Source: Ruminococcus sp. (GTDB lineage: Bacteria > Bacillota > Clostridia > Oscillospirales > Ruminococcaceae). Taken from it: a stretch of 64,000 nucleotides of DNA. The position numbers were made by a program, and so were the translations under genes. The stretch lies in the NCBI GenBank assembly GCA_017478965.1, contig JAFVCV010000039.1:124001-188000 (forward strand). The letters are read 5' to 3'. Below, piece by piece: positions 13,418-30,960 of this stretch. The notes beneath the pieces were generated by a model. It worked only from the letters and a program-made list of their open reading frames with translations, searched no databases and was not told the DNA's origin. The first letter of the stretch is position 1. The number at the start of each line of letters is the position of its first letter.

Positions 13418-13435
13418 CTTTGATCTTCTCCTCTC

Positions 13436-15696: not shown

Positions 15697-15730
15697 AAGT
15701 ATCCCTCCTCACGGTGCAGTCCCTTCTTTG

Positions 15731-15759
15731 ATTATAGCATATTTTTTAATGAATGTGAA
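15731..15759 (-). promoter_or_regulatory. Promoter of the membrane protein-araB-araD operon
   Basis: Read on the minus strand: TTCACA (15754-15759), 17-base spacer, TATAAT (15731-15736). Confidence 0.7.
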
Positions 15760-15796
15760 TAACCAAAACATCTTTTTTGTATAACTTTTTGCGCAA

Positions 15797-15830
15797 AAAA
15801 ACAGACCTTCCCATCGGCTCCGGTCTGTCA
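15797..15830 (-). terminator. Orphan minus-strand terminator
   Basis: Stem ACAGACC (15801-15807) / GGTCTGT (15822-15828) flanked by A7 on the left, which is T7 on the minus strand. No minus-strand gene lies upstream of it in the 16-kb gap. Confidence 0.55.
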
Positions 15831-16050
15831 TAACTGCCGAATTTTTAAATTATTGTCAGCTGTTATCAATAAATGAAAGTTTTATAGTAATTTTACACAA
15901 AAGTAAAATGAAAAATAATTGTGAATAAAAGCCGGACCATCATGGAAAAAACAGGGTCCTGAGTCAAAAATTCAGCGAGTTGTATAAAAATCGTGAAAAA
16001 TATTTGTTTGAAATACACAAAGGCGAAACAAGGATACAAAAAAGTAAAAT
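15831..16050. other. AT-rich intergenic stretch, no gene seen
   Basis: About 220 bases between the orphan terminator and the operator/promoter of the ABC operon. It holds only short AT-rich palindromes, such as TTTTAC / GTAAAA near 15891-15907. I see no open frame with a ribosome site. Confidence 0.5.
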
Positions 16051-16064
16051 CTTAAACGTTTTAG
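16051..16064. promoter_or_regulatory. LacI/CcpA-type palindromic operator
   Basis: CTTAAACGTTTTAG is an imperfect palindrome centred on CG, the hallmark of LacI-family sites. It matches the core of the catabolite-control (cre) consensus but not its outer bases. It ends 4 bases before the -35 box of the ABC operon. The cognate regulator is not in this window. Confidence 0.5.
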
Positions 16065-16068
16065 CTAC

Positions 16069-16097
16069 TTGACAAACCCGGGCTTAATTGTTATAAT
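16069..16097 (+). promoter_or_regulatory. Consensus promoter of the 13-kb ABC/envelope operon
   Basis: TTGACA at 16069-16074, 17 bases, TATAAT at 16092-16097. Confidence 0.92.
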
Positions 16098-16103
16098 TAT
16101 TTG

Positions 16104-16405
16104 TAGCACAGTATGCCCTTTTGGCAATTTTTCATAAAAAATACGGTAAAATGCACTGGTTTGGCGCTCGGTTTTTGAACAAAATTCACAGTGCCGTCAG
16201 AGCACATCTCAGCATATCGACCAGGCTGACCAAGGCCCGGACGAATGTTAAAATTGCACAAATATCAAGGCGGCTGCATAGTGACAGCTTTGCCGGCAGG
16301 CAGGGAACTGCCGGGCAGAGGTATGCTGTCGGTCTTTTATGACCATTCTGGATATTTCTACCATGCGGGCGCATGGACCCGTTTTTTTCAGCGGGGCGTT
16401 AGGCG
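16104..16405 (+). promoter_or_regulatory. Long structured leader of the ABC operon, candidate cis-acting RNA
   Basis: About 300 nt of non-coding leader. Visible pairings are GTCAG/CTGAC around 16197-16231 and an arm GACAGC / GCTGTC enclosing CCGGCAG / CTGCCGG (about 16281-16330). GGTC/GACC follows near 16331-16344. Near the end, CCATGC / GCATGG (16361-16376) is followed by ACCCG and T7 at 16382-16388. The last element looks like an attenuator. It fits none of the riboswitch cores I know (TPP, SAM, lysine, glycine, c-di-GMP, c-di-AMP, M-box, T-box, cobalamin). Confidence 0.45.
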
Positions 16406-16414
16406 GTGATATTT

Positions 16415-17092
16415 GTGGAAGTGATATTGAGCACCGAAGACCTGTGCCGGGACTTCAAGATAGGCGACGGCAGCGTGGTATCGGCGCTGAAAGGGATAAA
16501 TGTCGAGATAGAAAAAGGCAAGCTCACAGTGCTCAGAGGGCGTTCCGGCAGCGGCAAAACGACGCTGATAAATATTTTAGGAGCTCTGGACAGACCCACA
16601 AAGGGTAAGGTGATGTTCAAGGGAAAGGACATCACAAGGCTCTCAGAAGGGGCCAGGGATAAGCTGAGAAGGCATGAGATGGCTTTCGTGTTCCAGTCCG
16701 TGGCACTGATGTCAGGCATGACGGCTTATGAGAACGTTAATTTCGGCCTGAGACTGGCCCGGTACCCCTACGATAAAAGGGACGGGCGGACCAGGGAATG
16801 TCTGGCGGCTGTGGGACTGGATAAGAGAATGACTCACAGACCCGGGGAGATGTCCGGCGGCGAGCAGCAGAGAGTTGCCATAGCAAGGGCCATCGCCCAT
16901 GAACCGAGTATAATTTTTGCAGACGAACCCACGGCGGAGCTTGACTCCGGCACGGCGCTACACATAGTAAAGCTCTTCAAGGAGCTGGTGGCCGACCGTG
17001 GTATGACGATAATAATGACTACCCACGACCCGGGCATGATGGACGTGGCGGACAGGGTCTATACCCTTGAGGACGGTGAGATAGTTGAGTGA
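16415..17092 (+). CDS. ABC transporter ATP-binding protein, MacB/LolD type
   Basis: Nucleotide-binding subunit of about 225 residues. Walker A is GRSGSGKT (about 40-47), the Q-loop is VFQS, the signature MSGGEQQR, Walker B IIFADEPT and the H-loop TTHD; all catalytic parts are intact. MSGGEQQRVAIARA and the small size are typical of MacB/LolD/FtsE-like ATPases, which normally drive FtsX-type permeases, yet none is in this operon. Start is uncertain among GTG 16406, 16415 and 16421; AGGCGG at 16401-16406 favours 16415. First gene of the operon, and the next gene overlaps it by 8 bases. Confidence 0.88.
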   Translation: MEVILSTEDLCRDFKIGDGSVVSALKGINVEIEKGKLTVLRGRSGSGKTTLINILGALDRPTKGKVMFKGKDITRLSEGARDKLRRHEMAFVFQSVALMSGMTAYENVNFGLRLARYPYDKRDGRTRECLAAVGLDKRMTHRPGEMSGGEQQRVAIARAIAHEPSIIFADEPTAELDSGTALHIVKLFKELVADRGMTIIMTTHDPGMMDVADRVYTLEDGEIVE

Positions 17093-18020
17093 GAAGAGCG
17101 ATGATACTATTGTAAAGCCTTCCGATGATGAGTATATGATCCGGTGTGAAAACCTGGTGAAGATATACAAAACTTCTGATGTGGAGGCGGTGGCTCTCCA
17201 GGGGCTGGACCTTGACGTGAAGAAGGGCGAGCTGATGGCCATAGTGGGCAATTCGGGGAGCGGTAAATCTACCCTGCTGAATATGCTGGGCGGACTGGAC
17301 AGACCTTCCGCAGGCAGCCTGCTCATAGACGGGAAGAACCTGCTGAAATTCACGGATAAGGATTATATGGAATATAAGCGTGATACGGTGGGGTTCGTGT
17401 GGCAGAACAACGCCCGCAACCTGGTGCCTTATCTTACGGCGGTGCAGAACGTGGAGCTGCCGATGCTGCTGAAAGGGAAGAGAGGCCGGCGGCAGAGGGC
17501 TCTTGAACTTCTGAACAAGGTGGGCCTTTCCAAGCGGAAGAACAGCCGACTGGACCAGATGTCCGGCGGCGAACAGCAGAGGGTGGCCATCGCCATTGCC
17601 ATGGCCAATGATCCTAAGCTGCTCCTGGCCGATGAGCCTACCGGCTCGGTGGATACCAGGACTTCGGCTATGATACTGGATATCTTCAAGGAGCTTAACC
17701 GGACGGAGGGAGTCACGGTGGTGATAGTCACCCACGACCTTAAACTGGCGGACCATATCGACAGAGTGGTGGCCATCAGGGACGGAAGGACCAGCTCGGA
17801 GATAATCAGGAAGAAGTCCTATGCAGACGAGCTTTCGGAGATAGGCAGCCTCGGGGGCGAGGAAGAATTCACCCATGAGGAGCTGGCGGTGCTTGACCGG
17901 TCCGGAAGGCTGCAGCTCCCTAAGGACTATATGCAGGCCCTGGATATCAAGGGCGGCGATAAGGTCAAGGTCGAGCTTGACGAGGAAAGGAACGGTATGT
18001 TCCTCTACAGGTCGGGCTGA
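17085..18020 (+). CDS. ABC ATP-binding protein with C-terminal AbrB-like domain
   Basis: Protein of 311 residues. An MacB/LolD-type ATPase (about 15-235) has Walker A GNSGSGKS, VWQN, MSGGEQQR, LLLADEPTGSVD and VTHD, all intact. A C-terminal extension (about 250-311) has the strand-turn pattern RLQLPKDYMQALDIKGGDKV of the SpoVT/AbrB/MazE swapped-hairpin fold. Such an extension is unusual on an ATPase and could dimerise the protein, contact a partner or bind DNA (inference). TTG start overlaps the upstream stop, so the two ATPases are coupled and probably form a heterodimer. Confidence 0.86.
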   Translation: MSEKSDDTIVKPSDDEYMIRCENLVKIYKTSDVEAVALQGLDLDVKKGELMAIVGNSGSGKSTLLNMLGGLDRPSAGSLLIDGKNLLKFTDKDYMEYKRDTVGFVWQNNARNLVPYLTAVQNVELPMLLKGKRGRRQRALELLNKVGLSKRKNSRLDQMSGGEQQRVAIAIAMANDPKLLLADEPTGSVDTRTSAMILDIFKELNRTEGVTVVIVTHDLKLADHIDRVVAIRDGRTSSEIIRKKSYADELSEIGSLGGEEEFTHEELAVLDRSGRLQLPKDYMQALDIKGGDKVKVELDEERNGMFLYRSG

Positions 18021-18140
18021 GAGAAGGTCGGCGCTGATGCGCTGATATGATAACTATTGAGATCACACTGCTTTATTTGAGATAAATTAGGCGTTATCTC
18101 AGGCTTAACACAGCATTTTATTAAGAAAGGTGGATTTGCA

Positions 18141-21065
18141 GTGAAAAAAGCAATGTTTAGGCGTGTTGTCAGTGCCGCAGTCGCACTATCCTTGTGTGCG
18201 GCCTGTTTTGTTCCGGCAGCTTTTGCAGACAGTGACAGCACTCTAGGCACCCAGGACGCTGTCGAGACTACCGGTACGGACTCCATAAGGCAGACCTCTT
18301 ACACCAATTATGTGAAGAAGTATGCCGACGCAGCCAGACCGGCCATCGACGAGATCGTTATAAAGGGAGCGGATCACGTTTCCGTCAGCGACGATCTTGA
18401 ACTGGGCCAGAGTAGTTTTGAAGGCAGGGAGGACGTACTGTACTGGGCCAACCAGACAGGCTCCGTCACTTATGAGGTGGAGATACCGCAGGACGGGTGC
18501 TATAACCTTAAAGCCTCCTACTATTGCCTTGCCGGCAGCACTAACGAGGTAGAGTTCGAGCTGCTCATAGATGGGGAATCGCCCTACGGCACAGCATCGA
18601 GGATAACCCTCCCCAAAAGGTGGGTGAACGAATCCGGCAAGACCATACCGCAGGATTCGAGACAGCATGATATGAGGCCCGGCCAGGTGGAGGAGCCCTG
18701 CTGGCAGGAAACTCCTCTGGAGGATATCGACGGACTTTTCAACGAACCGCTGATGTTCTATCTGACAAAGGGAAAGCATGAACTGACCATTGATTCCGAG
18801 AAGGCGCAGTTCGTGCTGGAGAGCCTGACCGTTTATCAGTACAAGGCTCCCGAGGCCTATACTAAGCCCAGTGAGAGCGAGCTTAACAAGCTTTCCGGCA
18901 AAAAGCTCATTTTAGAGGGCGAGACTGCTGAGTATAAGTCTGCAAGGACCCTTTATCCTACAGCAGACAAGTCTTCTTACATGACTTCGGCTGTGAACGG
19001 ATACAGCCCTACGAAGACCAGATACAATACCATCGGCGGCGGCAGCTGGACCCAGTCCACTCAGGCCGTTACCTGGAAGCTGGATATCGCCTCTGACGGG
19101 TATTATAAGATCGGTATCTTTGCAAGACAGGACGTTATGAGAGGTATGTACTCCAACAGACGTCTTTATATCGACGGCCAGGTGCCTTGTGCTGAGGCTG
19201 ACCAGATAAAGTTCTATTACGATACTGACTGGAACGTTGTATCACCCGCTACCAACGGGGGAGATCCGCTTTATTTCTACTTCACAGCCGGCAGCCACGA
19301 GCTGACTCTGGAGGCTGTGCCCGGTGAGATAGGCGAGATAATGGGTGAGCTGGACGAGGTCGTTTTCGACATCAACAGCTACTACAGGCAGATAAGACAG
19401 ATCACCGGCCCTAACCCCGATCAGTATAACAACTATATGATAGATAAGGCTATCCCTCCTATCGTAGGGGATTTCACTTACTATGCCAAGCTTTTGAGAG
19501 ATGAAAAGGCCAAGATCGAACAGCTGTCAGGCTCCGGCGGAACAGAGGCCGAGACACTGGAGAAAATGGCTATCGTTCTTGACAAGTGCGTCAAGAAGCC
19601 TGATATAATCCCTGAGATGATGGGACAGATAAAGGATAACATCACTTCTGTTTCGTCCTTTATCAATCAGTACCGTGAGCAGCCTCTGGAAGTTGACAAG
19701 ATAGAGGTGTGCAGTGCGGACCAGAGCTTTTCTGACTGCAAGGCAAGCTTTTTTGGGACCCTCTCTACCGGGTTCCAGTCCTTCGTGGGTTCATTCTTCG
19801 AGGACTATAACTCTCTTTCCGATGAGGACGACGACACCGCTATCGAGTGCTGGGTAACTCTTGGCCGTGATAACGCCACCGTCATCAAGGAAATAATCGA
19901 CAGCGACTATAATGCTACCGCATCAAGGAAGGTCGTTCTGAAACTGGTACAGGGCGGTATCACTGAGGCTACCTTCTCAGGAAAAGGCCCTGATATGGCA
20001 CTGTTCATGGGCGGCGACTACCCCGTTCAGCTGGCAGCCAGAGGGGTGCTGGTGGACCTGACTCAGTTCTCGGATTATGAAGAAGTGACCCACAGGTTCG
20101 CTGACAATGCGATGACGCTCTATACCTATAACGACGGCGTATACGGTCTGCCGTGCTCGCAGAACTTCCCTGTGCTGTTCTACCGTACAGATATCCTGGC
20201 AGAGTATGACATCGACCCTGAGTATGACCTGGTAAGCTGGGACAGGATAATCAATATGCTCCCGACTCTCCAGAGAAACTATCTTGAGGTGGGCCTGAAG
20301 CTGCCTGCTACCGCAAGCGCCGGCGTCACCACCGTTTCGGCAGTTACCGAGAACGGAAATACATTCGCTATGATGCTGCTGCAGCAAGGGCTGAACTACT
20401 ATACCCCTGACCTGAAGAAGACCACCTTCGACCAGCAGCCTGCCATCGAGGCCTTTGATACCTGGACCAAGTTCTATACTACATACAGCTTCCAGCAGAC
20501 CTACGATGCGTTCACCAGATTCAGACAGGGCGATATGCCTGTGCTCGTACAGGACTATGCCTTCTATAACCAGCTCACAGCCGCCGCTCCTGAGATAAAG
20601 GGCTGCTGGAGCTTCAGACCTGTTCCCGGTACCTTCGATAAGGACGGCAATCTTAACCACGCTGCCAACTCCGAAGGCTCAGGCTGCATAATCTTCAATA
20701 AAGTTGAAGACAAGCAGGCTGCATGGGACTTCATAAAGTGGTTCACCTCTGCTGAGATACAGGCTAAGTACGGCAACAATATCGAGTCCGTTCTCGGACC
20801 TATGGGCCGTTACTCCACCGCTAACCAGGAGGCCCTGAGGATGCTCTCATGGACTACCAAGGAAGTGGATACTCTGCTCGAGCAGATGGATTCCCAGGTC
20901 GAGATACCGATAATCCCTGCATCCTACGGCGTGACACGTAATATCATGAACGCCTTCAGAACTGTTGTCAATGAGGCCGAGAACGCCAGAGAGACACTGT
21001 TCTGGTACAACAGGGATATCAACGACGAGATCACACGTAAGCGTGAGAACCTCGGACTTGACTGA
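18141..21065 (+). CDS. Very large extracellular solute-binding protein with N-terminal beta-sandwich modules
   Basis: Exported protein of 974 residues, about twice a normal sugar-binding protein. The signal peptide (1-29) ends AFA, and I see no proper lipobox (CAAC only). Two beta-sandwich, carbohydrate-binding-like modules follow: about 90-240 (YEVEIPQDGCYNLKASYY) and 265-430 (WKLDIASDGYYKIGIFARQD, YIDG). A helical linker precedes a type 1 solute-binding domain at about 560-930 (GPDMALFMGGDYPVQLAARG; YGLPCSQNFPVLFYRTDIL; WDFIKWFTSAEIQAKYG). GTG start with AAAGGTGG. It is followed directly by a MalF/MalG pair, so it should deliver an oligosaccharide or similar ligand. Confidence 0.86.
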   Translation: MKKAMFRRVVSAAVALSLCAACFVPAAFADSDSTLGTQDAVETTGTDSIRQTSYTNYVKKYADAARPAIDEIVIKGADHVSVSDDLELGQSSFEGREDVLYWANQTGSVTYEVEIPQDGCYNLKASYYCLAGSTNEVEFELLIDGESPYGTASRITLPKRWVNESGKTIPQDSRQHDMRPGQVEEPCWQETPLEDIDGLFNEPLMFYLTKGKHELTIDSEKAQFVLESLTVYQYKAPEAYTKPSESELNKLSGKKLILEGETAEYKSARTLYPTADKSSYMTSAVNGYSPTKTRYNTIGGGSWTQSTQAVTWKLDIASDGYYKIGIFARQDVMRGMYSNRRLYIDGQVPCAEADQIKFYYDTDWNVVSPATNGGDPLYFYFTAGSHELTLEAVPGEIGEIMGELDEVVFDINSYYRQIRQITGPNPDQYNNYMIDKAIPPIVGDFTYYAKLLRDEKAKIEQLSGSGGTEAETLEKMAIVLDKCVKKPDIIPEMMGQIKDNITSVSSFINQYREQPLEVDKIEVCSADQSFSDCKASFFGTLSTGFQSFVGSFFEDYNSLSDEDDDTAIECWVTLGRDNATVIKEIIDSDYNATASRKVVLKLVQGGITEATFSGKGPDMALFMGGDYPVQLAARGVLVDLTQFSDYEEVTHRFADNAMTLYTYNDGVYGLPCSQNFPVLFYRTDILAEYDIDPEYDLVSWDRIINMLPTLQRNYLEVGLKLPATASAGVTTVSAVTENGNTFAMMLLQQGLNYYTPDLKKTTFDQQPAIEAFDTWTKFYTTYSFQQTYDAFTRFRQGDMPVLVQDYAFYNQLTAAAPEIKGCWSFRPVPGTFDKDGNLNHAANSEGSGCIIFNKVEDKQAAWDFIKWFTSAEIQAKYGNNIESVLGPMGRYSTANQEALRMLSWTTKEVDTLLEQMDSQVEIPIIPASYGVTRNIMNAFRTVVNEAENARETLFWYNRDINDEITRKRENLGLD

Positions 21066-21083
21066 TGAAAGGAGAGTATGTAA

Positions 21084-22025
21084 ATGGCAAGAAATGCTAA
21101 CCCTGACGTCCCTATGAACAAACAGGGCAAATGGGCTTATACATGGCATATGATGAAGACCAACAAGGCTTGCTACCTGATGCTCGTCCCTTTCATGATC
21201 TTTTTCATAATCTTTACCGTGGTGCCCGTTATCATGTCGCTGCCTATGGGCTTTACGAATTTCAACATGATACAGATGCCCAAGTTCGTAGGACTGTCAA
21301 ATTTCTACACACTGTTCGTCGATGACGACGTGTTCCTGATAGCTGTCAGGAACACCCTGATATTCGCAATATTCACAGGACCCTTCTCCTATGTGCTGAG
21401 CTTTATGATAGCCTGGCTCATAAACGAGATGAATGCGTTCCTGAAAACTTTCTTCACATTCGTATTCTATGCGCCTTCTATGACCACCTCGGTGTACGTT
21501 ACCTGGCAGCTGATACTTTCAGGCGACTCTTACGGTTATCTGAACGCTGTGCTCATGGACCTTGGCATACTCAAGACCCCCGCTCAGTGGATAACGGATA
21601 CCAACTACATACTCACCGTCGTTATCATAGTTCAGCTATGGATGTCCATGGGCGCCGGATTCCTTGCTATACGTGCAGGTTTCCAGAACATAGACAAGTC
21701 CATGTACGAGGCCGGCGCTATAGAGGGCATAAAGAACAGATGGCAGGAGCTGTTCATGATAACTATCCCTTCAATGGGACCTCAGCTGCTGTTCGCTGCC
21801 GTTATGCAGATCTCCGCATCCTTCACCGTGGGCGTCGTTGGTCAGAACCTGGTAGGTCTTCCTTCCACAGACTATGCCGCACACACAATAATGAACCATG
21901 CGACAGACTATGGCTACATTCGTTACGAGATGGGCTATTCGTCGGCAATATGCTTTATCCTCTTCGCAGCGATGCTGCTTGCCAATAAGGGAGTAAACTG
22001 GCTCCTTGGCAAATATACGGATTAA
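21084..22025 (+). CDS. Sugar-type ABC permease, MalF/UgpA family (first pair)
   Basis: Membrane subunit of 313 residues with six predicted helices and the cytoplasmic EAA loop EAGAIEGIKNRWQELF (about 214-229) that docks on the ATPase. The N-terminus is short, without the extra MalF periplasmic domain. It starts 18 bases after the solute-binding gene and 17 bases before its MalG-type partner. ATPases for this class are usually MsmX/UgpC-like, which are not encoded here; the two operon ATPases are of another subtype. Confidence 0.9.
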   Translation: MARNANPDVPMNKQGKWAYTWHMMKTNKACYLMLVPFMIFFIIFTVVPVIMSLPMGFTNFNMIQMPKFVGLSNFYTLFVDDDVFLIAVRNTLIFAIFTGPFSYVLSFMIAWLINEMNAFLKTFFTFVFYAPSMTTSVYVTWQLILSGDSYGYLNAVLMDLGILKTPAQWITDTNYILTVVIIVQLWMSMGAGFLAIRAGFQNIDKSMYEAGAIEGIKNRWQELFMITIPSMGPQLLFAAVMQISASFTVGVVGQNLVGLPSTDYAAHTIMNHATDYGYIRYEMGYSSAICFILFAAMLLANKGVNWLLGKYTD

Positions 22026-22042
22026 GGGGGGGAATATAACAA

Positions 22043-22948
22043 ATGGCTAAAAGAAGAAAAAAGAAGCAGAGTATAGAAAAGCTCAAGGTCAAGGACAATA
22101 AGAACAAGCACGTCAACGGTTCCCGTGCAGGCGACGTTTGTATATTCATCTTCCTGCTGCTGCTGGGCGCCTTCATGGTGTTCCCTCTGTATTACTCGGT
22201 GATACAGTCACTCAAACCCGTTGAGGAGCTGTTCGTGTTCCCGCCTAAGCTCTACGTGCTCAACCCCACAGGTCGTAACTTCTCGGATATGTTCAGGGTC
22301 GCCGCAAGCTCATGGCAGGTGCCGCTTTCAAGATACATCTTCAACAGTTTCTTTATTACAATAGTTATCTGCGTGGCTAACCTGTTCGTTTGCTGCTGTG
22401 CTGCATTTGTTCTTTCAAAGTGCAGATTTCCCGGCAACGGCATAATCAACCAGATCATAGTTCTTGCCCTGCTGTTCGCATCGAACGCTACATGGATCAT
22501 GCAGTTCATGGTAATGGCTAAGCTCCATATGATCGATACCTACTGGGCTCTGATACTGCCCAGCATCTCCACCTCCATGGGTCTGTACCTGATGAGACAG
22601 AGTATGTCCTCCATACATGACGCTATGGTCGAGGCCGCCAAGGTGGACGGCGCAGGTCTGTTCAGGATATGCTGGCAGATAGTCGTTCCCAACCAGAAGC
22701 CCGCTATCATGACCCTGATAATCTTCGCATTCCAGGGCGCATGGAATATGCAGGGCGGCACCCTTACTTATTCAGAAGAACTGAAAACACTACCTACCGT
22801 TGTACAGCAGATATCCGCCGCAGGTCTTGCCCGTCAGGGCGTTACCTTCGCATCGTCTGTGGTACTGCTCATCCCTCCGCTGCTTGTTTTCCTTATTGCC
22901 CAGGGCAACGTTATGGAAACTATGGCTAACTCGGGTATGAAGGATTGA
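22043..22948 (+). CDS. Sugar-type ABC permease, MalG/UgpE family (first pair)
   Basis: Membrane subunit of 301 residues with a lysine-rich N-terminus (AKRRKKKQSIEKLKVKD), about six helices and the EAA loop EAAKVDGAGLFRICWQIVVP. It pairs with the preceding permease. A ribosome site AAGGGGGGG lies before the ATG. Confidence 0.9.
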   Translation: MAKRRKKKQSIEKLKVKDNKNKHVNGSRAGDVCIFIFLLLLGAFMVFPLYYSVIQSLKPVEELFVFPPKLYVLNPTGRNFSDMFRVAASSWQVPLSRYIFNSFFITIVICVANLFVCCCAAFVLSKCRFPGNGIINQIIVLALLFASNATWIMQFMVMAKLHMIDTYWALILPSISTSMGLYLMRQSMSSIHDAMVEAAKVDGAGLFRICWQIVVPNQKPAIMTLIIFAFQGAWNMQGGTLTYSEELKTLPTVVQQISAAGLARQGVTFASSVVLLIPPLLVFLIAQGNVMETMANSGMKD

Positions 22949-23011
22949 TGACTTCATCCGGATAAGAGTGTGACTTAAAACAAATCTGAGAAAAGGAAAA
23001 GGTGATAAGTA

Positions 23012-24601
23012 GTGTTGAGAATAAAAAGACCACTGAAGAAAATTCTCTGCTTTAGTATGGCCGCAGTCACTGCTCTGTCTATGAGCATCTCTGCATTCGC
23101 AGCCGAGCCTTATGAATCCTATATATACGATACCTGGCAGGACGCTATACCTTCCCAGAACTCATACCGTATTGACAGGACCGTGACAGGCTACGATATG
23201 GGGCTGCAAAGGCTGTCTGATCCGGAGGACCCGCTGTTCGTGAGCGAGAATGCAGCGAAGAAGCTGGCTAACCCCAGGGACCTGTATTTCGATGATGACG
23301 AAAAACAGTTCTGGATAGCCGATACTGATAACAACCGTATCATACGGCTCGATGAGGACCTGCAGATCACAGGGTGCTATTACTCTGTGGGCGGCTCCAC
23401 GTTTTCAGCTCCTACAGGGCTGTATGTAAAAAGGAGCCTTTATACCGATAAGCTTTATATCTATATCGCAGATACCAATAATTCCAGGATAATAAAAGCT
23501 TCGGTGGAGGGCGATATGGAGCTTGAGATGGTAAAGGAGTACGGCAAACCCGATACTGACCTTTATACAGTAGAGACTTTCAACCCCTCCAAAGTAGTGG
23601 CTGACGCCGCTGAGAACGTGTATGCGGTCTGCTCGGCTGTAAACCAGGGCGCCGTTCAGTTCAACGCAAAGGGCGCTTTCCAGGGCTATTACGGTGCAAA
23701 CCGTGTCGAGGTGACCGCTGCGGTCATCGCTCAGAAGCTCTGGAGAAAATTCGCATCGAATGAACAGATCGACGGCATGAAGAGAAACGTGCCTGTCGAG
23801 TATGCAAACTTCGATATTGATGAGGGCGGTTTCATCTATACGGTAACTGAGAAGTCCAATACGACTACCGACGCCGTTAAGAAGCTGAACCCCGCAGGCT
23901 ATAACATCTGGGACAACGTTACCGGCAACGAGTATAAGTTCGGTGATATGCAGTCTGAGTGGGACCCCACATCTAACTCCAACCACAGCACAAGGCTGAC
24001 AGACATCTGTGTGGGCAACAACGGACTGATAAACGTCCTTGACTATACCACAGGCCGTGTGTTCCAGTATGACAGAAATGCAAATCTGCTCTGTATCTTC
24101 GGCGCAAAGAACTCCACAAACGACCAGAGAGGTACTTTCTCTAACCCCAATGCGGTAGAGGCTTATAAAAACAATATATATGTGATAGACGGCGCAAAGT
24201 GCGATATCACGATATATTCCGAAACTACCTTCGGCAAGCTCATGCATGAGGCAGTGGAGCTGTATGACGAAGGTAAGTATACCGAAGCCAAGCCCGTATG
24301 GCAGAGCGTCATCGAGAGAGACGGCGGTTATCCTTTGGCCTATATCGGCCTCGGCAAGGCTGCGCTCAACGACGGTGAGTATCAGAAGGCCCTGGATTAT
24401 TTCAAGGCTGCATATGACCAGAAGGACTACGACAAGGCCTTCAAGTATGCAAGAGAGGAATATATCAGAGAGCACTTCACTGCCATAGTAGTTGTTCTGG
24501 CTGTACTGGCAGTCCTCTTAGTAGTCGTTTCACAGATGCACAAGAGGAACAAGTACATCTTCAAGGGCAGATTTAAGAAGAAAGCAAAGGAGGGAAGATA
24601 G
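23012..24601 (+). CDS. Membrane-anchored NHL-repeat beta-propeller protein with TPR segment
   Basis: Protein of 529 residues: signal peptide (1-30, ending AFA), then NHL/YWTD-like repeats forming a propeller (about 85-400: LYFDDDEKQFWIADTDNNRI, LYIYIADTNNSRI). A TPR-like segment (about 415-475: AYIGLGKAALNDGEYQKALD) is followed by one C-terminal membrane helix (about 490-510) and a basic cytoplasmic tail. It therefore displays a propeller outside the membrane. It lies inside the ABC operon between the first permease pair and the YIP1 gene. I infer a docking or scaffold role. GTG start. Confidence 0.8.
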   Translation: MLRIKRPLKKILCFSMAAVTALSMSISAFAAEPYESYIYDTWQDAIPSQNSYRIDRTVTGYDMGLQRLSDPEDPLFVSENAAKKLANPRDLYFDDDEKQFWIADTDNNRIIRLDEDLQITGCYYSVGGSTFSAPTGLYVKRSLYTDKLYIYIADTNNSRIIKASVEGDMELEMVKEYGKPDTDLYTVETFNPSKVVADAAENVYAVCSAVNQGAVQFNAKGAFQGYYGANRVEVTAAVIAQKLWRKFASNEQIDGMKRNVPVEYANFDIDEGGFIYTVTEKSNTTTDAVKKLNPAGYNIWDNVTGNEYKFGDMQSEWDPTSNSNHSTRLTDICVGNNGLINVLDYTTGRVFQYDRNANLLCIFGAKNSTNDQRGTFSNPNAVEAYKNNIYVIDGAKCDITIYSETTFGKLMHEAVELYDEGKYTEAKPVWQSVIERDGGYPLAYIGLGKAALNDGEYQKALDYFKAAYDQKDYDKAFKYAREEYIREHFTAIVVVLAVLAVLLVVVSQMHKRNKYIFKGRFKKKAKEGR

Positions 24602-24602
24602 T

Positions 24603-25232
24603 ATGTATGAATTCACACCGGTAGGGTGGCTCAAGCATTGCGTCTTCCACCCTGTAGAAGGCTTTGAGGACCTGAGGTGGAAGAAACAGGGTTCGATGAA
24701 GATCTCGCTGATAATAGTGTTCTTCCTCTTCGTGGCCATGGTGGCCGACAGACAGGCTACAGGCTTTCAGTTCAATGACAATTATGTAAAGATATTCAAT
24801 GTCGTACCGCTGATAGTGCAGTCGGTGGTCTACTACATCACCTGGGTAGTGGGCAACTGGTCTATCTGTACTCTGCTCGAGGGCGAAGGCACCTTCAAGA
24901 AGATCGCTATCTATTCGGCTTATTCCCTGGTGCCCTACATAGTTTGTACGATAATCAAGGTCATCCTTTCAAACTTCCTGGTTCAGGAGGAATCCATATG
25001 GATCTCAGCTCTGGCTTACCTTGGCCTTGGCTGGTCCATAGTGCTGATGATACAGGCAATGAAGGCCTGCCACCAGTACAGTTTCAGCAAGACCCTGGTA
25101 TCTATGCTGCTGACTCTGGTAGCAATGCTTTTGATACTGTTCCTTGCGATACTTCTGCTTTCCCTGTTCCAGCAGGTATATGTGTTCTTCTACTCAGTCT
25201 ATACAGAGATTGCGTATAGGATCCGAGGCTAA
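24603..25232 (+). CDS. YIP1-family membrane protein
   Basis: Membrane protein of 209 residues with about five helices and the YIP1-type soluble start WLKHCVFHPVEGFEDLRWKK. Function of bacterial YIP1-family proteins is unknown. It starts 1 base after the NHL gene's stop with AAAGGAGG upstream, so it is firmly in the operon. It may form a membrane complex with the NHL/TPR protein (inference). Confidence 0.75.
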   Translation: MYEFTPVGWLKHCVFHPVEGFEDLRWKKQGSMKISLIIVFFLFVAMVADRQATGFQFNDNYVKIFNVVPLIVQSVVYYITWVVGNWSICTLLEGEGTFKKIAIYSAYSLVPYIVCTIIKVILSNFLVQEESIWISALAYLGLGWSIVLMIQAMKACHQYSFSKTLVSMLLTLVAMLLILFLAILLLSLFQQVYVFFYSVYTEIAYRIRG

Positions 25233-25252
25233 TTAGAAACGGTGGTGTAAAA

Positions 25253-27631
25253 ATGCATAGCAAAAATTATAAAAAAGCGATAGTCTTTGCGTTGTGTCTT
25301 ACGATGCTGGTACCTCTGGGTTCGATGGCAGTTTCTTACGCCGAGGAGGATACCGCACCGGCAGCCGAGGAAAGTGCCTCTGAGGATACCGCAGACGAGG
25401 GCGGCAGCAGCAAGGACGAAGACCTGGCCGAGCCTATCACCGATGAAGAGGCTGTGGCCATGTGCGAGAAGCTGGCAGAGAACGACAACTTAATTCTCTA
25501 CGGCGACAAGGACAACAACAGGCTCTGCCTTTATGTGAAGAGCAGCGGCAGACACTGGTGGACCTCGCCAATAAATGTAATGGCCGATAATACTATCGTT
25601 GATATCGAAAAGAACGATACGATGAAGGCTGCGCTGAGAAAGCAGCTGACATCAAACTGCGCCATCAAGGTGGCCGACCTGAGACAGGAGAAGAGGACAG
25701 AGTCCGCTGCGCCTGTTTATTCCAACAAGGCCAGCTGCGTCTGGAAGGAAGGCAATAACGGCGTAGTCATCACCTATAAGTACAAGGCCGAGGGCGTCAA
25801 CGTCAAGATACACTATGAGCTGTGTGAGGATAACCTTTACGTTTATATGGATTCCTCCGAGGTCGAGGAGGCCAATATCAGCACGGTGGACGGCAAGATA
25901 CTTACCAAGGTACAGCTCGCACCCTATTTCGGTGCGATGCCTGCAACGGATATCGACGGGAACCCTGTAGAGGGCTATATGATAATCCCTGACGGCTCCG
26001 GCGCAGTGATAAAGTATAATAACGGCAAGGGCAACTACCCTGATTATACACAGCAGGTATATGGCAGAGACTATACCGCTGTTCCGCTGAACGCTCCTAA
26101 GGTGACTGAACAGGCTTATATGCCGGTAGTGGCCACCGTGAACGGCAAGGACGGTCTGGTGGCCGTGGCTTCCGACGGCGACGCTAATGTTTACGCCAAG
26201 GCACAGGTCAGCGGTCAGAACAAACAGGCCTATAACTGCTGCTACTTCGAGTTCGAGACCCGCTCCTCCGATACCTACTTCATGAGCGGCGATACCTCCA
26301 ACAAGCTCAACGTTTTTGAGAAGGACGAGATAAAGACCGAGCGTTTCGGCGTGAGGTACTATGCCGTGGAGGGCAAGAACGGTGAGGATGTGAACTATGC
26401 GGACTGCGCTGAGGTCTACAGAGACTATCTGATAAAGAACAAGGGGCTGACCGCAGGGGACGTCAGCGGAACTGACCTTTATCTTGATATGTTCGGCGGT
26501 GTTGTGAAGAGGACTTCTATCGTGGGCCTTCCTTTCAACCTGAAGACCGAGATAACCGGATTTGACCAGGCCGGCGAGATAGTTCAGCAGCTGAAAGACA
26601 AGGGCGTCGGGACCTTCCAGGTGAACTACAACGACTGGACCAACGACACCATGAAGAACAAGATATCCACCAAGGTAAAGCCTTCCGGCACCCTGGGCGG
26701 CAAGAGCGATTTCAATGACTTCCTAGCTACGGACAATGTGACGGTCTATCCCTCACTGAACAACTTCACCTTCAAGAAGAGCTCCGCAGGGTACTGGACA
26801 CTGACAGCCACCGCCATAAGGATATCGAACGCTTATTCAAGACAGTCTTCATACAGCCTGAGCTTCGGCGTGGCAAAGAAGGGCGTTTCGCCTGCACTTC
26901 TGTCACCCAGCAAGTACAGCCAGGCTATGGAGCAGATGATAGACAGCTACAGTGACAAGGGCATAAACAACATAGGTTTCGGTATGTTCTCTTCAAGACT
27001 GGTAGGCGACTATACAAGAAGAGATACATATGTAAGGAACAAGACTATGGGCGTTCTGGTAGACGAATACAGCAAGGCCAAGGACAAGATAGGTTCAGTC
27101 ATCGGCGACGAGGCAAATGCTTATATCCTGCCTTATGTTTCTACCGTGACTAATGTGCCTGTATCGTCAAGCGGCTATGTCATCACCGATATGGACATAC
27201 CTTTCTACCAGATGGTGGTCCACGGTTATGTGCCCTATGCTACAACAGCCATCAATAAGAGCTCTGATACGGACGAGACCTTTATGCTCTCCCTGGCGGC
27301 AGGTTCGCAGATCCATTACGACTTCACCTATGTGGACCCTGATATCCTTCAGGATACGGATTATAACGACCTGTACTACACCAACTATAAGGGCTGGCTG
27401 GATGCGGCAGCTAATCAGTATAAGGCTGCGAACGATGTTCTCAGCGGCGTAGCTGACTACACTATTTCCAAATATGAGGTAAGTGAGGACGGAAACGAGA
27501 TCACCACCACTTACTCTAAGGACGGCGCTAAGGACGTTGTGATAGTCATAAACAAGGCTGATGCAACGGCTAAGGTCGACGGCACCGTCATAGATCTCGG
27601 AAATTGTATCGAAGGAGGTTTGGATCAGTAA
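25253..27631 (+). CDS. Secreted DUF5696-type protein, possible glycoside-hydrolase-like fold
   Basis: Exported protein of 792 residues: signal peptide (1-30, SYAEE), an acidic Ala/Glu/Asp-rich linker (32-65), a beta-rich N-terminal region (about 75-370) and a second half (about 400-690) that reads like a TIM-barrel: LYLDMFGGVVKRTSIVGLPF, GVGTFQVNYNDWTNDT, DNVTVYPSLNN, GDEANAYILPYVS. It resembles DUF5696 proteins found next to sugar ABC genes. Catalytic carboxylates cannot be assigned with confidence. No wall or membrane anchor. The following permease overlaps its stop by one base. Confidence 0.75.
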   Translation: MHSKNYKKAIVFALCLTMLVPLGSMAVSYAEEDTAPAAEESASEDTADEGGSSKDEDLAEPITDEEAVAMCEKLAENDNLILYGDKDNNRLCLYVKSSGRHWWTSPINVMADNTIVDIEKNDTMKAALRKQLTSNCAIKVADLRQEKRTESAAPVYSNKASCVWKEGNNGVVITYKYKAEGVNVKIHYELCEDNLYVYMDSSEVEEANISTVDGKILTKVQLAPYFGAMPATDIDGNPVEGYMIIPDGSGAVIKYNNGKGNYPDYTQQVYGRDYTAVPLNAPKVTEQAYMPVVATVNGKDGLVAVASDGDANVYAKAQVSGQNKQAYNCCYFEFETRSSDTYFMSGDTSNKLNVFEKDEIKTERFGVRYYAVEGKNGEDVNYADCAEVYRDYLIKNKGLTAGDVSGTDLYLDMFGGVVKRTSIVGLPFNLKTEITGFDQAGEIVQQLKDKGVGTFQVNYNDWTNDTMKNKISTKVKPSGTLGGKSDFNDFLATDNVTVYPSLNNFTFKKSSAGYWTLTATAIRISNAYSRQSSYSLSFGVAKKGVSPALLSPSKYSQAMEQMIDSYSDKGINNIGFGMFSSRLVGDYTRRDTYVRNKTMGVLVDEYSKAKDKIGSVIGDEANAYILPYVSTVTNVPVSSSGYVITDMDIPFYQMVVHGYVPYATTAINKSSDTDETFMLSLAAGSQIHYDFTYVDPDILQDTDYNDLYYTNYKGWLDAAANQYKAANDVLSGVADYTISKYEVSEDGNEITTTYSKDGAKDVVIVINKADATAKVDGTVIDLGNCIEGGLDQ

Positions 27632-28641
27632 TGAGTGACACCAATAAGATCAATACCGAAGAAGAACTCGATCAGGCAGTTCAGACTTCTGAAGATACAG
27701 CCCCCGCAGCTGCGGCTGCTGCACCCGTCAAGGCTGAAAAGAACCACAAGCTCTCCTATGAGAAGAGAAAGGGCCTTTACGGCTACGGTTTTATAGCCCT
27801 GTGGATCTTAGGTACGGCCTACTTCTTCGTAGCACCGCTGATCGAATCACTGATATATTCCTTTAACCAGACGTCGGTACAGCCCGGCGGTATGGAGATG
27901 AAGTATATCGGTTTTAAAAACTACGTGAATGCTTTCCGTAAGGACCAGGATTATTCCCTGGCACTTGTGGATATGCTGAAAAATACTGCGCTGAGGACGC
28001 CGCTGATAATCATTTTCTCGATATTCATCGCCCTGGTCCTCAACCAGAAATTCCACGGAAGGACCTTCGCAAGAGCGGTATTCTTCCTGCCTGTTATCAT
28101 CGCCACCGGCCCTGTAATGGACATCATCAACGGCAACATGAGCACAGGCGGCTACGCCGGCGGTTCAGAGCAGTTCAGCTCCATGTTCGAGGCTGACCTG
28201 GTGGACCAGCTGCTGAACTTCCTGGGTATCTACAACATCAGCGACAGGCTGTCCGAGATCATAAATTCGCTGACAACGGATATCTTCAACCTGGTGTGGA
28301 ACTCAGGTATACAGATCCTGCTGATACTTTCAGCGCTCCAGGGCATATCTCCTTCCTCGAAGGAGGCCGCTCAGATGGAGGGCGCTACCGCATGGGAGTT
28401 CTTCTGGAAGATCACCCTGCCTACCATCAGCCCCATGATCTTAGCAAGCGTAGTTTACACCGTAGTTGACTCATTCGTAGACCCCGGCAACAAGGTAATG
28501 ACCATTGTTCTTAACAAGTCTACCAACTGGGAGCACGGCTATTCAGCAGCAATGGCCTGGGCATACTTCCTTATCATTGGTGTCTGCCTGGCGATAATCG
28601 TTGCTATACTGAACAAGGTCGTATACTATGAAGTAGAATAA
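27631..28641 (+). CDS. Sugar-type ABC permease, MalF/UgpA family (second pair)
   Basis: Permease subunit of 336 residues. An unusual acidic/Ala-rich cytoplasmic N-terminus (1-45, including AAAAAAPVKAEK) precedes six helices and an EAA-like loop near KEAAQMEGATAWEFFWKITLP. The ATG at 27631 shares a base with the previous TAA, with GGAGG upstream. It belongs with the next gene. A second permease pair in one operon with only one binding protein is uncommon. Confidence 0.9.
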   Translation: MSDTNKINTEEELDQAVQTSEDTAPAAAAAAPVKAEKNHKLSYEKRKGLYGYGFIALWILGTAYFFVAPLIESLIYSFNQTSVQPGGMEMKYIGFKNYVNAFRKDQDYSLALVDMLKNTALRTPLIIIFSIFIALVLNQKFHGRTFARAVFFLPVIIATGPVMDIINGNMSTGGYAGGSEQFSSMFEADLVDQLLNFLGIYNISDRLSEIINSLTTDIFNLVWNSGIQILLILSALQGISPSSKEAAQMEGATAWEFFWKITLPTISPMILASVVYTVVDSFVDPGNKVMTIVLNKSTNWEHGYSAAMAWAYFLIIGVCLAIIVAILNKVVYYEVE

Positions 28642-28653
28642 GGGGGGATCTAA

Positions 28654-29727
28654 GTGGCAACTAAAAAAGAAGAAAAGCAGTTTGAAAAAGAACGCAAGGC
28701 TGCTATAAAGGCCCGTGAAAAGCGAATGAAGGAGCTGGGCATAGAGAACTTCCTTACGCCCGAGCAGATCAAGTACAACAAGAGGAAAAAGGCTATCGGC
28801 ACAGTATGGCCGGTGTTCAGAGCGATCATACTCTTCGGTCTGTGCTTTATCATACTCTATCCTCTGATATTCATGCTTTCTACAGCATTCAGGCCTAACG
28901 AGCAGATGAATGACCCCTCTATCGTTTGGATACCCAAGAGCTTTACGATGTCCAACATCAACGACGTTATGGGAGTTATGAAGTATAAGAACGTCCCCTT
29001 AGGCGAGAATACGCTTCTGAACACCATCAAGATGAACCTTGTGGCATCGATACTTCAGGTGCTGACCTGTTCGATAACAGGCTACGGCTTTGCAAGATTT
29101 AAGTTCAAGGGCAAAAATCTGCTGTTCGCTATCGTTATACTTATGATAATCGTTCCCCCGCAGATAACGACCATACCGCTTTATATGCAGTTCCATTATT
29201 TCAAGCCCAAGTTCTTAGGTCAGCTGCTGACCATGGACTTTAAGGGTACAGGTTCTCTTATCAACAGCGGCTGGACCATGTATCTGCCGGCACTGTTCGC
29301 CAACGGCCTGAGAGCCGGACTGTTCATCTTCATCTTCCGCCAGTTTTTCAGAGGACTGCCTAAGGAGCTTGAAGATGCGGCTTACCTTGACGGCTGCTCA
29401 CCTCTTTACACTTATGTGAAGATAATGGTGCCCAACGCAAGACAGAGCTTCCTGACAGTTTTCCTGTTCTCCATCGTATGGTACTGGAACGACTACTATG
29501 TATCATCATCGTTCTTCACCAACAACAATACCATTGCGCTGATGCTGAAGAACCTTAACACCAACCTGACTCAGCAGCTCTTCGACGGTCAGACCGTATC
29601 TGTCAGACAGATAATCGTGTGGCTGGAGGCCGGCTGTCTGCTGTCGATCACCCCGATACTTATCATGTATGTTTTCCTCCAGAGGTACTTCATCGAAGGT
29701 ATCGAGAAATCCGGTCTTGCTAACTAA
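28654..29727 (+). CDS. Sugar-type ABC permease, MalG/UgpE family (second pair)
   Basis: Permease subunit of 357 residues: a charged coiled N-terminus (KKEEKQFEKERKAAIKAREK), about six helices and the EAA loop LEDAAYLDGCSPLYTYVKIM. GTG start behind GGGGGGATC. Last gene of the operon, with a strong terminator 20 bases on. Confidence 0.9.
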   Translation: MATKKEEKQFEKERKAAIKAREKRMKELGIENFLTPEQIKYNKRKKAIGTVWPVFRAIILFGLCFIILYPLIFMLSTAFRPNEQMNDPSIVWIPKSFTMSNINDVMGVMKYKNVPLGENTLLNTIKMNLVASILQVLTCSITGYGFARFKFKGKNLLFAIVILMIIVPPQITTIPLYMQFHYFKPKFLGQLLTMDFKGTGSLINSGWTMYLPALFANGLRAGLFIFIFRQFFRGLPKELEDAAYLDGCSPLYTYVKIMVPNARQSFLTVFLFSIVWYWNDYYVSSSFFTNNNTIALMLKNLNTNLTQQLFDGQTVSVRQIIVWLEAGCLLSITPILIMYVFLQRYFIEGIEKSGLAN

Positions 29728-29748
29728 GCTTTACCTGATAAAAAAACT

Positions 29749-29784
29749 GCCCATATACTGCTTTTGCAGTATATGGGCTTTTTG
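29749..29784 (+). terminator. Terminator of the ABC/envelope operon
   Basis: Perfect 13-pair stem GCCCATATACTGC / GCAGTATATGGGC around TTTT, followed by TTTTTG. Confidence 0.93.
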
Positions 29785-29869
29785 TGTTTGTAAACTCAGC
29801 TTCCCAAAGCTCCTGTCAGTACAGTTATGAGCAGTGCTATCAGAGTTAAGGTGACAAGCTATAGTACTA

Positions 29870-30946
29870 TCAGCCGTCCTCCAGGCTCAGTCTGTCCTCA
29901 AGATATTCCGGCATGGTCTTTCCGGCAGTCTCGCACTGACTGATAAGTTTTTTTCTCACCCCGGCGCCCTGCCTGAAAGCTTTGGAAAAGAACCTCCAGA
30001 TGAAATAGGATATCACACCGCTTATCAGAGCGAAAACTAAAATGTCAGTGATACCCTCGCTGGCGGCAGCTGTGCCAATGACCGAAGCAAGATAAATAAC
30101 TGCGACAAAAAGGTCAAAGCCCCTGTCCACAATGTCGTTGATGTGCTCACTGCTTTTCAGCTTATCCAGATAGCCCTCAGCAGTGACCTTGCCCCTGGAC
30201 GAAAGCCTTTCATACTGTTTCTTCCAGCCGTTCATAACTATGAGTTCCAGCCGCACGCTGCTCAGATTTTTGTAGTAGCTGTCTTTGAGCATCAGCTTAC
30301 GTTCGTTGCGGATAGTGCCGAAGTGCTTGTACCTCCATACTGACCGAACCGTGAAGAATATCGCTATATATGCCCCGCTGCATATCACAAGGGGCAGAGA
30401 GGGAACATTGAGCTGCGCACTGATGCTGTCCTGAGATATCAGCATCCCGAAAAACATAGCGGCAAAGCCGACAATAGCGATATTGTTCCAGGTTTCCGGG
30501 CTGATCTTCCTGTTCCTGAACATCAGCGGCAAGATAACTAAGCTGCACATCAGCTCGAAAACCACACCCAGCCCTATCCCGAAAAGATAAGGCAGGATAT
30601 TACTGACCGCCTTTTCATTACTGCCGGCGTCTGCGGTAAAAGGGAGCAGCTCCATTACAAAGATCACCCAAGCAAAGCTGTAAAACCTGCCCGGCAGCTC
30701 CCTTAGCCTTTCCAATGGGGTGAAGTCCCCAAAAAAGTCCCTGCAAAACCGCTCCCGGTCGCTGCCCGTTATCCGCCTGACGTCCCTGCCCTCTGTCTGG
30801 GCAGTCAGCAGTATATCATATAGTTCTGTCAGTCTGTCGGTCAGCATATCTGCCGAAATGTTCTTCATGGAGCCGTAGACCAATACCTCCGAAAACACCT
30901 GACGGTATTCGCCTTTCAGCTGCTCCTTCATAAGCTCAAATTCCAT
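29870..30946 (-). CDS. PadR-associated membrane protein with DUF1048-like N-terminus
   Basis: Protein of 358 residues. A soluble helical N-terminus (about 1-75, ending RRITGSDRERFCRDFF) resembles the DUF1048/HAAS domains often encoded beside PadR repressors, and about seven membrane helices follow in two clusters (90-215 and 290-335). ATG 30946 is chosen because AAAGGAG sits 6 bases upstream; the frame could also open at GTG 30964. It is directly downstream of the padR gene and shares its autoregulated promoter. Biochemical role unknown; such pairs often answer membrane-active compounds. Confidence 0.68.
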   Translation of the reverse strand: MEFELMKEQLKGEYRQVFSEVLVYGSMKNISADMLTDRLTELYDILLTAQTEGRDVRRITGSDRERFCRDFFGDFTPLERLRELPGRFYSFAWVIFVMELLPFTADAGSNEKAVSNILPYLFGIGLGVVFELMCSLVILPLMFRNRKISPETWNNIAIVGFAAMFFGMLISQDSISAQLNVPSLPLVICSGAYIAIFFTVRSVWRYKHFGTIRNERKLMLKDSYYKNLSSVRLELIVMNGWKKQYERLSSRGKVTAEGYLDKLKSSEHINDIVDRGFDLFVAVIYLASVIGTAAASEGITDILVFALISGVISYFIWRFFSKAFRQGAGVRKKLISQCETAGKTMPEYLEDRLSLEDG

Positions 30947-30960
30947 AACGTTCTCCTTTC

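Follow-up and report, generated by a model that had tools for sequence, protein, structure and literature searches.

CUT1-class permeases of the EAA type pair with MalK-type ATPases. Importers of this class that depend on MsmX, MsmK, or UgpC have MalFG permeases with EAA loops and a MalK-type ATPase that is encoded outside the operon, and exporters of the MacAB/LolCDE type are built from LolD-class ATPases, an HlyD adaptor, and an FtsX permease. The closest described locus to the one analyzed here is the head of the xylan locus (XDL) of Caldicellulosiruptor (Anaerocellum) bescii. In the excerpts of the published account, the head of XDL is given as xloEFG-X-GH129-axoFGE, from Athe_0174 onward, and is annotated as two MsmK-dependent CUT1 importers, an assignment that reflects annotation and regulation and not biochemistry (PMC8579813). 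The same excerpts report that deletion of msmK impaired growth of C. bescii on di- and oligosaccharide substrates (PMC8579813).

The window analyzed here is a 64,000-nucleotide stretch of Ruminococcus sp. DNA. It contained ten plus-strand ORFs between positions 16406 and 29727, which were spaced by short gaps or overlaps and, according to a motif scan of the window, were enclosed by one strong promoter and one terminator. The features were as follows:

16050..16066, plus strand, putative LacI-family-like operator TCTTAAACGTTTTAGCT, just 5' of the -35 box
16069..16097, plus strand, sigma-70-type promoter TTGACA-17-TATAAT with an extended -10 (TG), 12/12 match
16406..17092, plus strand, A1, LolD/MacB-class ABC ATPase (ABC_tran, NCBIfam)
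17085..18020, plus strand, A2, ABC ATPase of the LolD/MacB class that carries an AbrB/MazE-like extension at its C terminus (ABC_tran, NCBIfam)
18141..21065, plus strand, SBP, binding protein of 974 aa, two CBM35-like modules followed by an SBP_bac_8 domain (Pfam, family profile)
21084..22025, plus strand, F1, MalF/UgpA-type permease, EAA loop intact (NCBIfam, loop search)
22043..22948, plus strand, G1, MalG/UgpE-type permease, EAA loop intact (NCBIfam, loop search)
23012..24601, plus strand, NHL propeller with TPRs (Pfam); hydrophobic segments at residues 11-31 (N-terminal) and 484-512 (C-terminal), from hydropathy only
24603..25232, plus strand, YIP1 membrane protein (Pfam Yip1, hydropathy)
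25253..27631, plus strand, secreted DUF5696 protein, distant GH129 relative with Ala682 (DUF5696 model, E=3.5e-156)
27604..28641, plus strand, F2, MalF-type permease, EAA loop intact (NCBIfam, loop search)
28654..29727, plus strand, G2, MalG-type permease, EAA loop intact (NCBIfam, loop search)
29749..29778, plus strand, intrinsic terminator, 13-pair hairpin with a T-run on both strands (hairpin scan)

The whole scan returned 32 promoter-like and 24 terminator-like sites, compared to 16.8 and 13.7 in shuffles. Given this background, only the two best sites, the promoter and the terminator listed above, carried weight. ORF starts were called mechanically, and no Rfam match to a known RNA was found in the leader or operon (positions 15600-30200). 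The ORFs, the Pfam and NCBIfam assignments, and the motif scan bore out an earlier reading made from the sequence only, which had placed a single promoter and terminator around ten genes with these domains.

Eight of the genes (SBP, F1, G1, NHL-TPR, YIP1, DUF5696, F2, and G2) formed a cassette that mostly lacked A1-A2 and whose order was conserved across Bacillota. We read the gene order of 40 order-level loci, 20 phylum-level loci, nine plus six further loci from family f1, and 80 named loci, and the order SBP-F1-G1-NHL-DUF-F2-G2 was kept in 37/40, 13/20, 8/9, and 75/80 loci of the four sets. This conserved order supports the proposal that the genes belong together. The order E-F-G-X-GH129-F-G, as given in the excerpts on C. 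bescii, is the same as that of the cassette when X is equated with the NHL/YIP1 gene, which we did by position and by locus L184. The sequence-only reading knew of no characterized counterpart; an operon of the same architecture does exist in the C. bescii xylan locus, and the excerpts describe it in terms of regulation and annotation (PMC8579813). XDL, as excerpted, has a second binding protein gene (axoE) and CAZyme genes downstream, whereas the window has neither: G2 is followed by the terminator and then by convergent genes. A1-A2 are a feature of the window and do not appear in the C. bescii operon in those excerpts.

A strong DUF5696 match served as the cassette marker and was found in 99 of the 197 sampled order genomes (ten weak or partial matches of 109 were dropped) and in 37 of the 398 phylum genomes; in family f1, three weak matches of 20 were dropped, leaving 17. 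A plasmid search with DUF5696 gave two records. GH43 or GH26 genes adjoined cassettes in several lineages (96 of 205 same-strand flanking ORFs were scanned). A surface glycan or wall component had been proposed as the substrate, and the neighboring genes make a plant glycan the probable one. The cassette is old, widespread, and little studied, and no role in it is known for four of its eight parts (the CBM35-bearing SBP, NHL-TPR, YIP1, and DUF5696). Literature searches gave no match for DUF5696 or for Ruminococcus with FtsX and MacB, and those for the combination of YIP1, NHL, and permease gave only papers that seemed unrelated from their listing. The excerpts of PMC4264767, PMC4300822, and PMC13278490 contained nothing tied to the operon.

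The binding protein had been read as oversized with sugar-binding-like modules, and the extra part indeed consisted of two CBM35-like modules. Matches to these modules were weak with the single sequence, but at E<=0.01 CBM_35 was found in 10/23 and Golvesin_C in 14/23 members of the SBP family. The family profile also reached two separate stretches of known structures that we take to be CBM35-bearing; its top match was a designed coiled coil and concerned a helical stretch. Of the phylum-level loci, 16/20 had a second binding protein of conventional type near the cassette, but none was found near F2-G2 in any of the 80 Ruminococcus-type loci. The source genome encoded seven SBP_bac_1 proteins that scored over the cutoff, one of which was the cassette's own, and the five regions inspected for a second binding protein yielded none that was assignable to F2-G2.

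In the case of the propeller and YIP1, the two proteins were fused in 18 of 39 loci, which indicated that the propeller/YIP1 unit is real, as had been anticipated; its role would be that of a scaffold. The occurrence of this fusion beside oligosaccharide permeases suggests a dedicated surface scaffold in many Gram-positive fiber degraders. The DUF5696 profile matched GH129 NagBb and the GH129-like DagB with whole-sequence E values of 1e-7 to 1e-10, but the matches over single stretches were much weaker. The DUF5696 alignments took 28/40 and 35/60 sequences, and no Asp or Glu was invariant among 35 diverse members. Position 682 was Glu in 50/51 members outside family f1 but in only 4/96 members within it, and D586 was present in 37/51 and 93/96 members, respectively. 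Thus, the protein is distantly related by sequence to NagBb and DagB, but we did not adopt the view that it is an ordinary GH129 enzyme because no acidic residue was invariant and family f1 differed at position 682. In the alignments labeled A1 and A4, the first residue of minus-strand references was omitted; in alignment A3, it was omitted from those of loci L031-L070.

All four permeases were assigned to BPD_transp_1, although F1 scored under the Pfam cutoff (its nearest NCBIfam model was UgpA). EAA-like loops were found in 141/141 homologues of F1, 138/138 of G1, 135/146 of F2, and 143/146 of G2. The source genome encoded one MsmX/UgpC-type ATPase with an OB_MalK match (G000:C9, about 76951-78172), which was located outside the operon. 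MalK-type ATPases with that match were present in 95 of the 99 order genomes with a strong DUF5696 match (the exceptions were G024, G034, G158, and G160), but they were common in the order anyway (165/197). In Paenibacillus cellulosilyticus, ugpC was located 38 bp 5' of the cassette, and the UgpC protein was 55% identical to the source genome's own MsmX-type ATPase and ~31% identical to A1 and A2. The locus shares with MsmX-dependent CUT1 importers the EAA-loop permease pairs and a MalK/MsmX-type ATPase with an OB/TOBE domain elsewhere in the genome, and an ATPase of the MsmX/UgpC type would most likely power the cassette. An SBP_bac_8 protein is present for the first pair. The locus differs from those importers in that a single operon encodes two permease pairs, NHL-TPR-YIP1, and DUF5696 together with one binding protein, which is large and bears CBM35 modules.

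The nearest NCBIfam models of A1 and A2 included LolD, MacB, and FtsE, all under their curated cutoffs. The absence of an FtsX-type permease, which the sequence-only reading had remarked on, held inside the window but not genome-wide, since one was encoded on another contig (G000:C24:129199-132171), where it formed part of an unlinked adaptor and permease locus (G000:C24, about 129196-133420). In the two adaptor-permease (c2-c3) pairs tested, c3 carried two FtsX stretches and c2 was HlyD-like. Among the 197 order genomes, A2 and the FtsX permease c3 occurred together in 31, c3 occurred without A2 in one (G081, an assembly of 410 contigs), and A2 occurred without c3 in none; these are raw counts that ignore shared ancestry. 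The cutoff for a true A2 (E<1e-100) was chosen after the E values had shown a gap from 4e-102 to 2e-59. The family f1 genomes with A1 were the same 9 of 61 as those with c3 (two weak FtsX matches of 11, in G239 and G253, were dropped). In four families other than f1, A1-A2 were located directly 3' of c3 in 17 of the 20 fetched loci; two of the remaining three agreed by coordinates, and one stopped inside the A1-A2 pair at a contig edge. As in MacAB/LolCDE-like exporters, then, a LolD/MacB-class ATPase is co-inherited with an FtsX permease, as counted on the permease. The present system differs in having two distinct ATPase genes, of which one encodes an AbrB-like tail, a permease of ~950 aa with two FtsX stretches, and genes that are split between loci. 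A1-A2 most likely belong to this HlyD-FtsX exporter, and its location elsewhere in the genome best explains the mismatch between ATPases and permeases in the operon. The ATPase result is a clear case of misleading operon membership: neighboring ATPases can serve a transporter encoded elsewhere.

Taken as a whole, the locus is probably a plant-oligosaccharide uptake operon with two CUT1 importers that run on a remote MsmX/UgpC-type ATPase, and A1-A2 are probably the ATPases of an unlinked HlyD-FtsX exporter. SBP with F1-G1 would form one importer and F2-G2 another, both energized by the ATPase encoded at G000:C9. The NHL-TPR propeller would be an extracellular accessory scaffold attached to YIP1 in the membrane, and the secreted GH129-like DUF5696 protein may handle or hold the glycan beside it. 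A1-A2 would be exporter ATPases that are co-expressed with the importer in the window's lineage, with their adaptor and permease encoded on G000:C24.

The sequence-only reading instead had A1-A2 directly energizing both MalFG pairs, with the whole operon acting as one transporter. Such a machine would fit the ten-gene arrangement, in which A1-A2 were directly before SBP in 73 of the 80 named, Ruminococcus-type loci, and it would fit the fact that A1-A2 fill the slot held by ugpC in P. cellulosilyticus. However, A2 was absent from 86 of the 99 order genomes with a strong DUF5696 match, A1-A2 were never found without an FtsX permease where we searched, and 18 of the 31 order genomes with A2 and c3 lacked the cassette, as did G203 and G225 in family f1. 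Given this co-occurrence, the adjacency of A1-A2 to c3, and the MsmX-type ATPase in the genome, we rejected the direct pairing as the main reading and consider it highly improbable. It is unlikely, too, that in Ruminococcaceae A1-A2 power both the FtsX exporter and the MalFG pairs, alongside or instead of MsmX. Dual use would be consistent with the conservation of A1-A2 in the importer operon in family f1, where all seven sampled genomes with A1-A2 and a strong DUF5696 match had A1-A2 at the cassette rather than immediately next to c3, and the two with A1-A2 but without such a match had them beside c3. On the other hand, A1 was absent from 10 of the 17 family f1 genomes in which DUF5696 matched strongly, four of the 80 named loci had upstream sequence but no called A1-A2 pair, and the established partners of these permeases are MalK-type ATPases. 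We think it very unlikely that importer and exporter form one coupled surface machine in Ruminococcaceae, in which A1-A2 would power the FtsX pump and engage the MalFG EAA loops while NHL-TPR-YIP1 held both; if so, a single ATPase pair would serve an importer fold and an exporter fold.

Co-expression alone explains only weakly why A1-A2 stay with the cassette in so many of the named loci. One possibility, which we regard as doubtful, is that capture of the importer's glycan requires something that the exporter secretes or installs, so that the two systems share an operon while their ATPases remain separate; this would be compatible with the two-importer explanation and would add a functional link to it. 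The presence of A1-A2 in the importer operon is consistent with such a link, as are the adaptor and permease genes directly 3' of G2 in R. bicirculans 80/3 (L218), L222, and L223. In L283 and L288, a GH26 gene was likewise followed by an adaptor gene, which was truncated where the stretch ended, and an adaptor gene also came after GH26 in G238, where cassette, GH26, adaptor, and c3 ran on a single strand with gaps of <100 bp. Arguing against the link, a terminator-like hairpin separated G2 from the adaptor gene in L218, L222, and L223, and outside family f1 A2 was found in 4/90 genomes with a strong DUF5696 match versus 18/93 without one. Nor was the LacI-like site found 5' of the unlinked adaptor genes in the eight loci checked.

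With regard to control elements, a sigma-70 promoter was found 5' of A1 in 73 of the 74 regions examined (counting the window), and 37 of the 74 carried AACGNTT at 14-15 nt 5' of their -35 box (chance, ~0.0004 per 4-nt slot). A palindrome was present 5' of the source genome's own msmX (n=1) and at none of seven other msmX loci with upstream sequence. From these regions and the eight adaptor loci above, we rejected the idea that the LacI-like site co-regulates msmX or the unlinked adaptor genes. In three of seven genomes of the matching family, an exact XynR (XDL) operator was located on the DUF5696 strand, ~7.4 kb 5' of that gene.

The ten-gene operon was a known kind of importer with a little-studied, widely conserved accessory arrangement, together with what are most likely the ATPases of an unlinked exporter. 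ORF calling and domain models gave the following features in the window.

12725-15016, minus strand: genes for a class II aldolase and an FGGY sugar kinase, 5' of the operon and on the opposite strand
16050-16066: LacI-family-like operator
16406-29727, all on one strand: ten ORFs, in order two LolD/MacB-class ABC ATPases (A1 and A2), a binding protein (SBP, 974 aa), a MalF/MalG-type permease pair (F1-G1), NHL-TPR, YIP1, DUF5696, and a second permease pair (F2-G2)
17805-18017: AbrB/MazE-like C-terminal extension of A2
29870-31281, minus strand: PadR regulator and DUF1048-like protein genes, downstream of and convergent to the operon

A promoter/terminator scan of the window revealed a 12-of-12 promoter 5' of the run and a strong terminator 3' of it, and a single transcript probably covers all ten genes. 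The sequence-only reading had described the operon accurately; its ten ORFs, domains, promoter, and terminator were all confirmed. Of 74 upstream regions (the window's among them), 73 had the same promoter 5' of A1, and 37 had a LacI-like AACGNTT core 14-15 nt 5' of the -35 box.

In the order sample, 109 of 197 genomes had a DUF5696 match (99 once weak matches were removed); in the phylum sample, 37 of 398 did. The SBP-F1-G1-NHL-DUF-F2-G2 series was intact in 37/40 order-level and 13/20 phylum-level loci; in the remaining loci, the halves were swapped, NHL-DUF-F2-G2 was found alone, or a gene went uncalled or was cut off. When named genomes were scanned with F1 and the best 80 of 123 relatives were taken, the relatives belonged to Ruminococcus and its kin (R. 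albus 8, R. albus AR67, R. bicirculans 80/3, and many rumen and rabbit genomes). The series was complete in 75 of these best 80 loci, and A1-A2 was immediately 5' of SBP in 73. Three of the other seven loci (L237, L249, and L272) stopped at a contig edge or close to one; in the remaining four (L235, L239, L256, and L266), upstream sequence was present and A1-A2 was not called there. The core of the operon was an eight-gene cassette. Of 39 loci, 21 had YIP1 as a gene of its own and 18 had it as the C-terminal part of the NHL protein; this fusion was strong evidence that the propeller and YIP1 would act as one unit. EAA-like loops were detected in F1 (141/141), G1 (138/138), F2 (135/146), and G2 (143/146). 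Because NHL/YIP1-DUF5696-F2-G2 occurred without SBP-F1-G1, or preceding it, in some lineages (L188, L189, L198, and L192-L194), the cassette looked to be built from two modules.

A search with A2 across the order yielded two distinct classes of match. The true class (31 genomes, E < 1e-100) extended into the C-terminal extension, as did A2-class matches of other families, and the remaining matches were generic LolD-like proteins (best, 2e-59). The extension matched Pfam MazE at 5.5e-5, slightly short of the cut-off, and its structure matches were to AbrB/SpoVT alone and weak (E 0.09 to 0.8). Outside the window's own family, A1-A2 lay immediately 3' of c3, an FtsX permease of about 920-990 aa, in 17 of 20 fetched loci; L101 and L120 were consistent by coordinates, and L103 was cut at a contig edge. 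Ahead of c3 there were often one to three c2 genes, and both c2 proteins examined were HlyD-like. In raw counts that ignore shared ancestry, A1 and c3 were found in the identical nine of 61 genomes of the window's family, and among the 197 order genomes, A2 and c3 occurred together in 31, c3 without A2 in one (a fragmented genome), and A2 without c3 in none. Based on this adjacency and co-occurrence, A1-A2 therefore most likely serve the HlyD-FtsX exporter. In the window's genome, c2-c3 was on contig C24, apart from A1-A2, and no ATPase gene was recognized beside it there. In G238, the cassette's own gene run ended with G2, GH26, c2, and c3, spaced by less than 100 bp; in R. bicirculans (L218), L222, and L223, c2-c3 followed G2 with a terminator-like hairpin in between. 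A putative functional tie between exporter and importer is plausible.

The proposal that A1-A2 energize the MalFG permeases as one machine was unlikely, given that A2 did not occur without c3 in any of the 197 order genomes and was absent from 86 of the 99 with a strong DUF5696 match. Importers of this type are known to use shared ATPases. A MalK-OB ATPase was found in 95 of those 99 genomes versus 70 of the 98 others, with no match in G024, G034, G158, or G160; the window's genome had one. On a Paenibacillus cellulosilyticus plasmid (L302), ugpC was 38 bp 5' of the cassette, and the window genome's MalK-OB ATPase was 55% identical to this UgpC, versus about 31% for A1 and A2. These results fit a cassette powered by a shared MalK/MsmX-type ATPase. 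An MsmX gene was 3.7-6.2 kb from the cassette in eight Ruminococcus-type loci, and none was found near it in the fetched order- and phylum-level loci.

At the phylum level, 16/20 loci had a conventional second binding protein near the cassette, as did both named plasmid loci, against 3/31 order-level loci, 2/9 loci of the window's family without A1-A2, and 1/9 further loci of that family (a partial one). It was found in none of the 80 Ruminococcus-type loci, using seven seed proteins as queries, which distant homologues may escape. Thus, the pairing of one binding protein with two permease pairs, as noted in the sequence-only reading, was real and is probably derived.

DUF5696 family profiles matched DagB and NagBb, both GH129-type structures, at whole-sequence E values of 1e-7 to 1e-10, with single stretches weaker; in PMC5698469, DagB was put outside GH129 by its own authors. 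None of the Asp/Glu positions was invariant among 35 DUF5696 members. Glu was present at position 682 in 50 of 51 members outside the window's family versus 4 of 96 within it. Specifically, it was in 0/77 Ruminococcus-type members (window counted), 0/9 others with A1-A2, and 3/9 without A1-A2, the fourth being the second copy of G067. Outside the family, 37/51 members retained D586, and 93/96 did within it. The window's DUF5696 may be non-enzymatic and serve as a binding protein. In searches of the open-licence PMC literature, no text was found that named DUF5696 or the NHL/YIP1 part of the cassette beyond the labels "X" and "GH129" (PMC8579813).

The gene neighbors suggested that the imported substrate is a hemicellulose oligosaccharide, which may differ from cassette to cassette. 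A GH43 gene adjoined the cassette in Butyrivibrio fibrisolvens pNP243 and L184. Relatives of one GH26 query were near the cassette in 7 of 65 loci, and a GH26 relative was in 9/9 checked Ruminococcus-type loci (L278, L281-L284, and L287-L290), by position directly 3' of G2; unlike these nine operons, the window's operon had no GH26 gene. In L185, a GH26-CBM27-CBM6/35 gene (16625-19333) adjoined both a cassette and a second binding protein, which suggests that a mannan-specific paralogue occurs within the family that has the xylan locus. PMC8579813 gives the order of the Caldicellulosiruptor bescii xylan degradation locus (XDL) as xloEFG-X-GH129-axoFGE, and PMC12285236 gives its operator as a 20-base sequence. 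Three of the seven genomes in one family (f113) carried the exact operator about 7.4 kb 5' of DUF5696 and on its strand; the remaining four, among them the source of L184, gave no match. By the operator, its distance and strand, and the gene order in the paper, the cassette in the three operator-bearing genomes would be the XDL head. The class II aldolase and FGGY kinase genes beside the window's operon possibly function in pentose catabolism and would suit pentose use. In L302, the cassette and ugpC were among several LLM flavin-dependent oxidoreductases and two binding proteins, which is an unusual substrate context.
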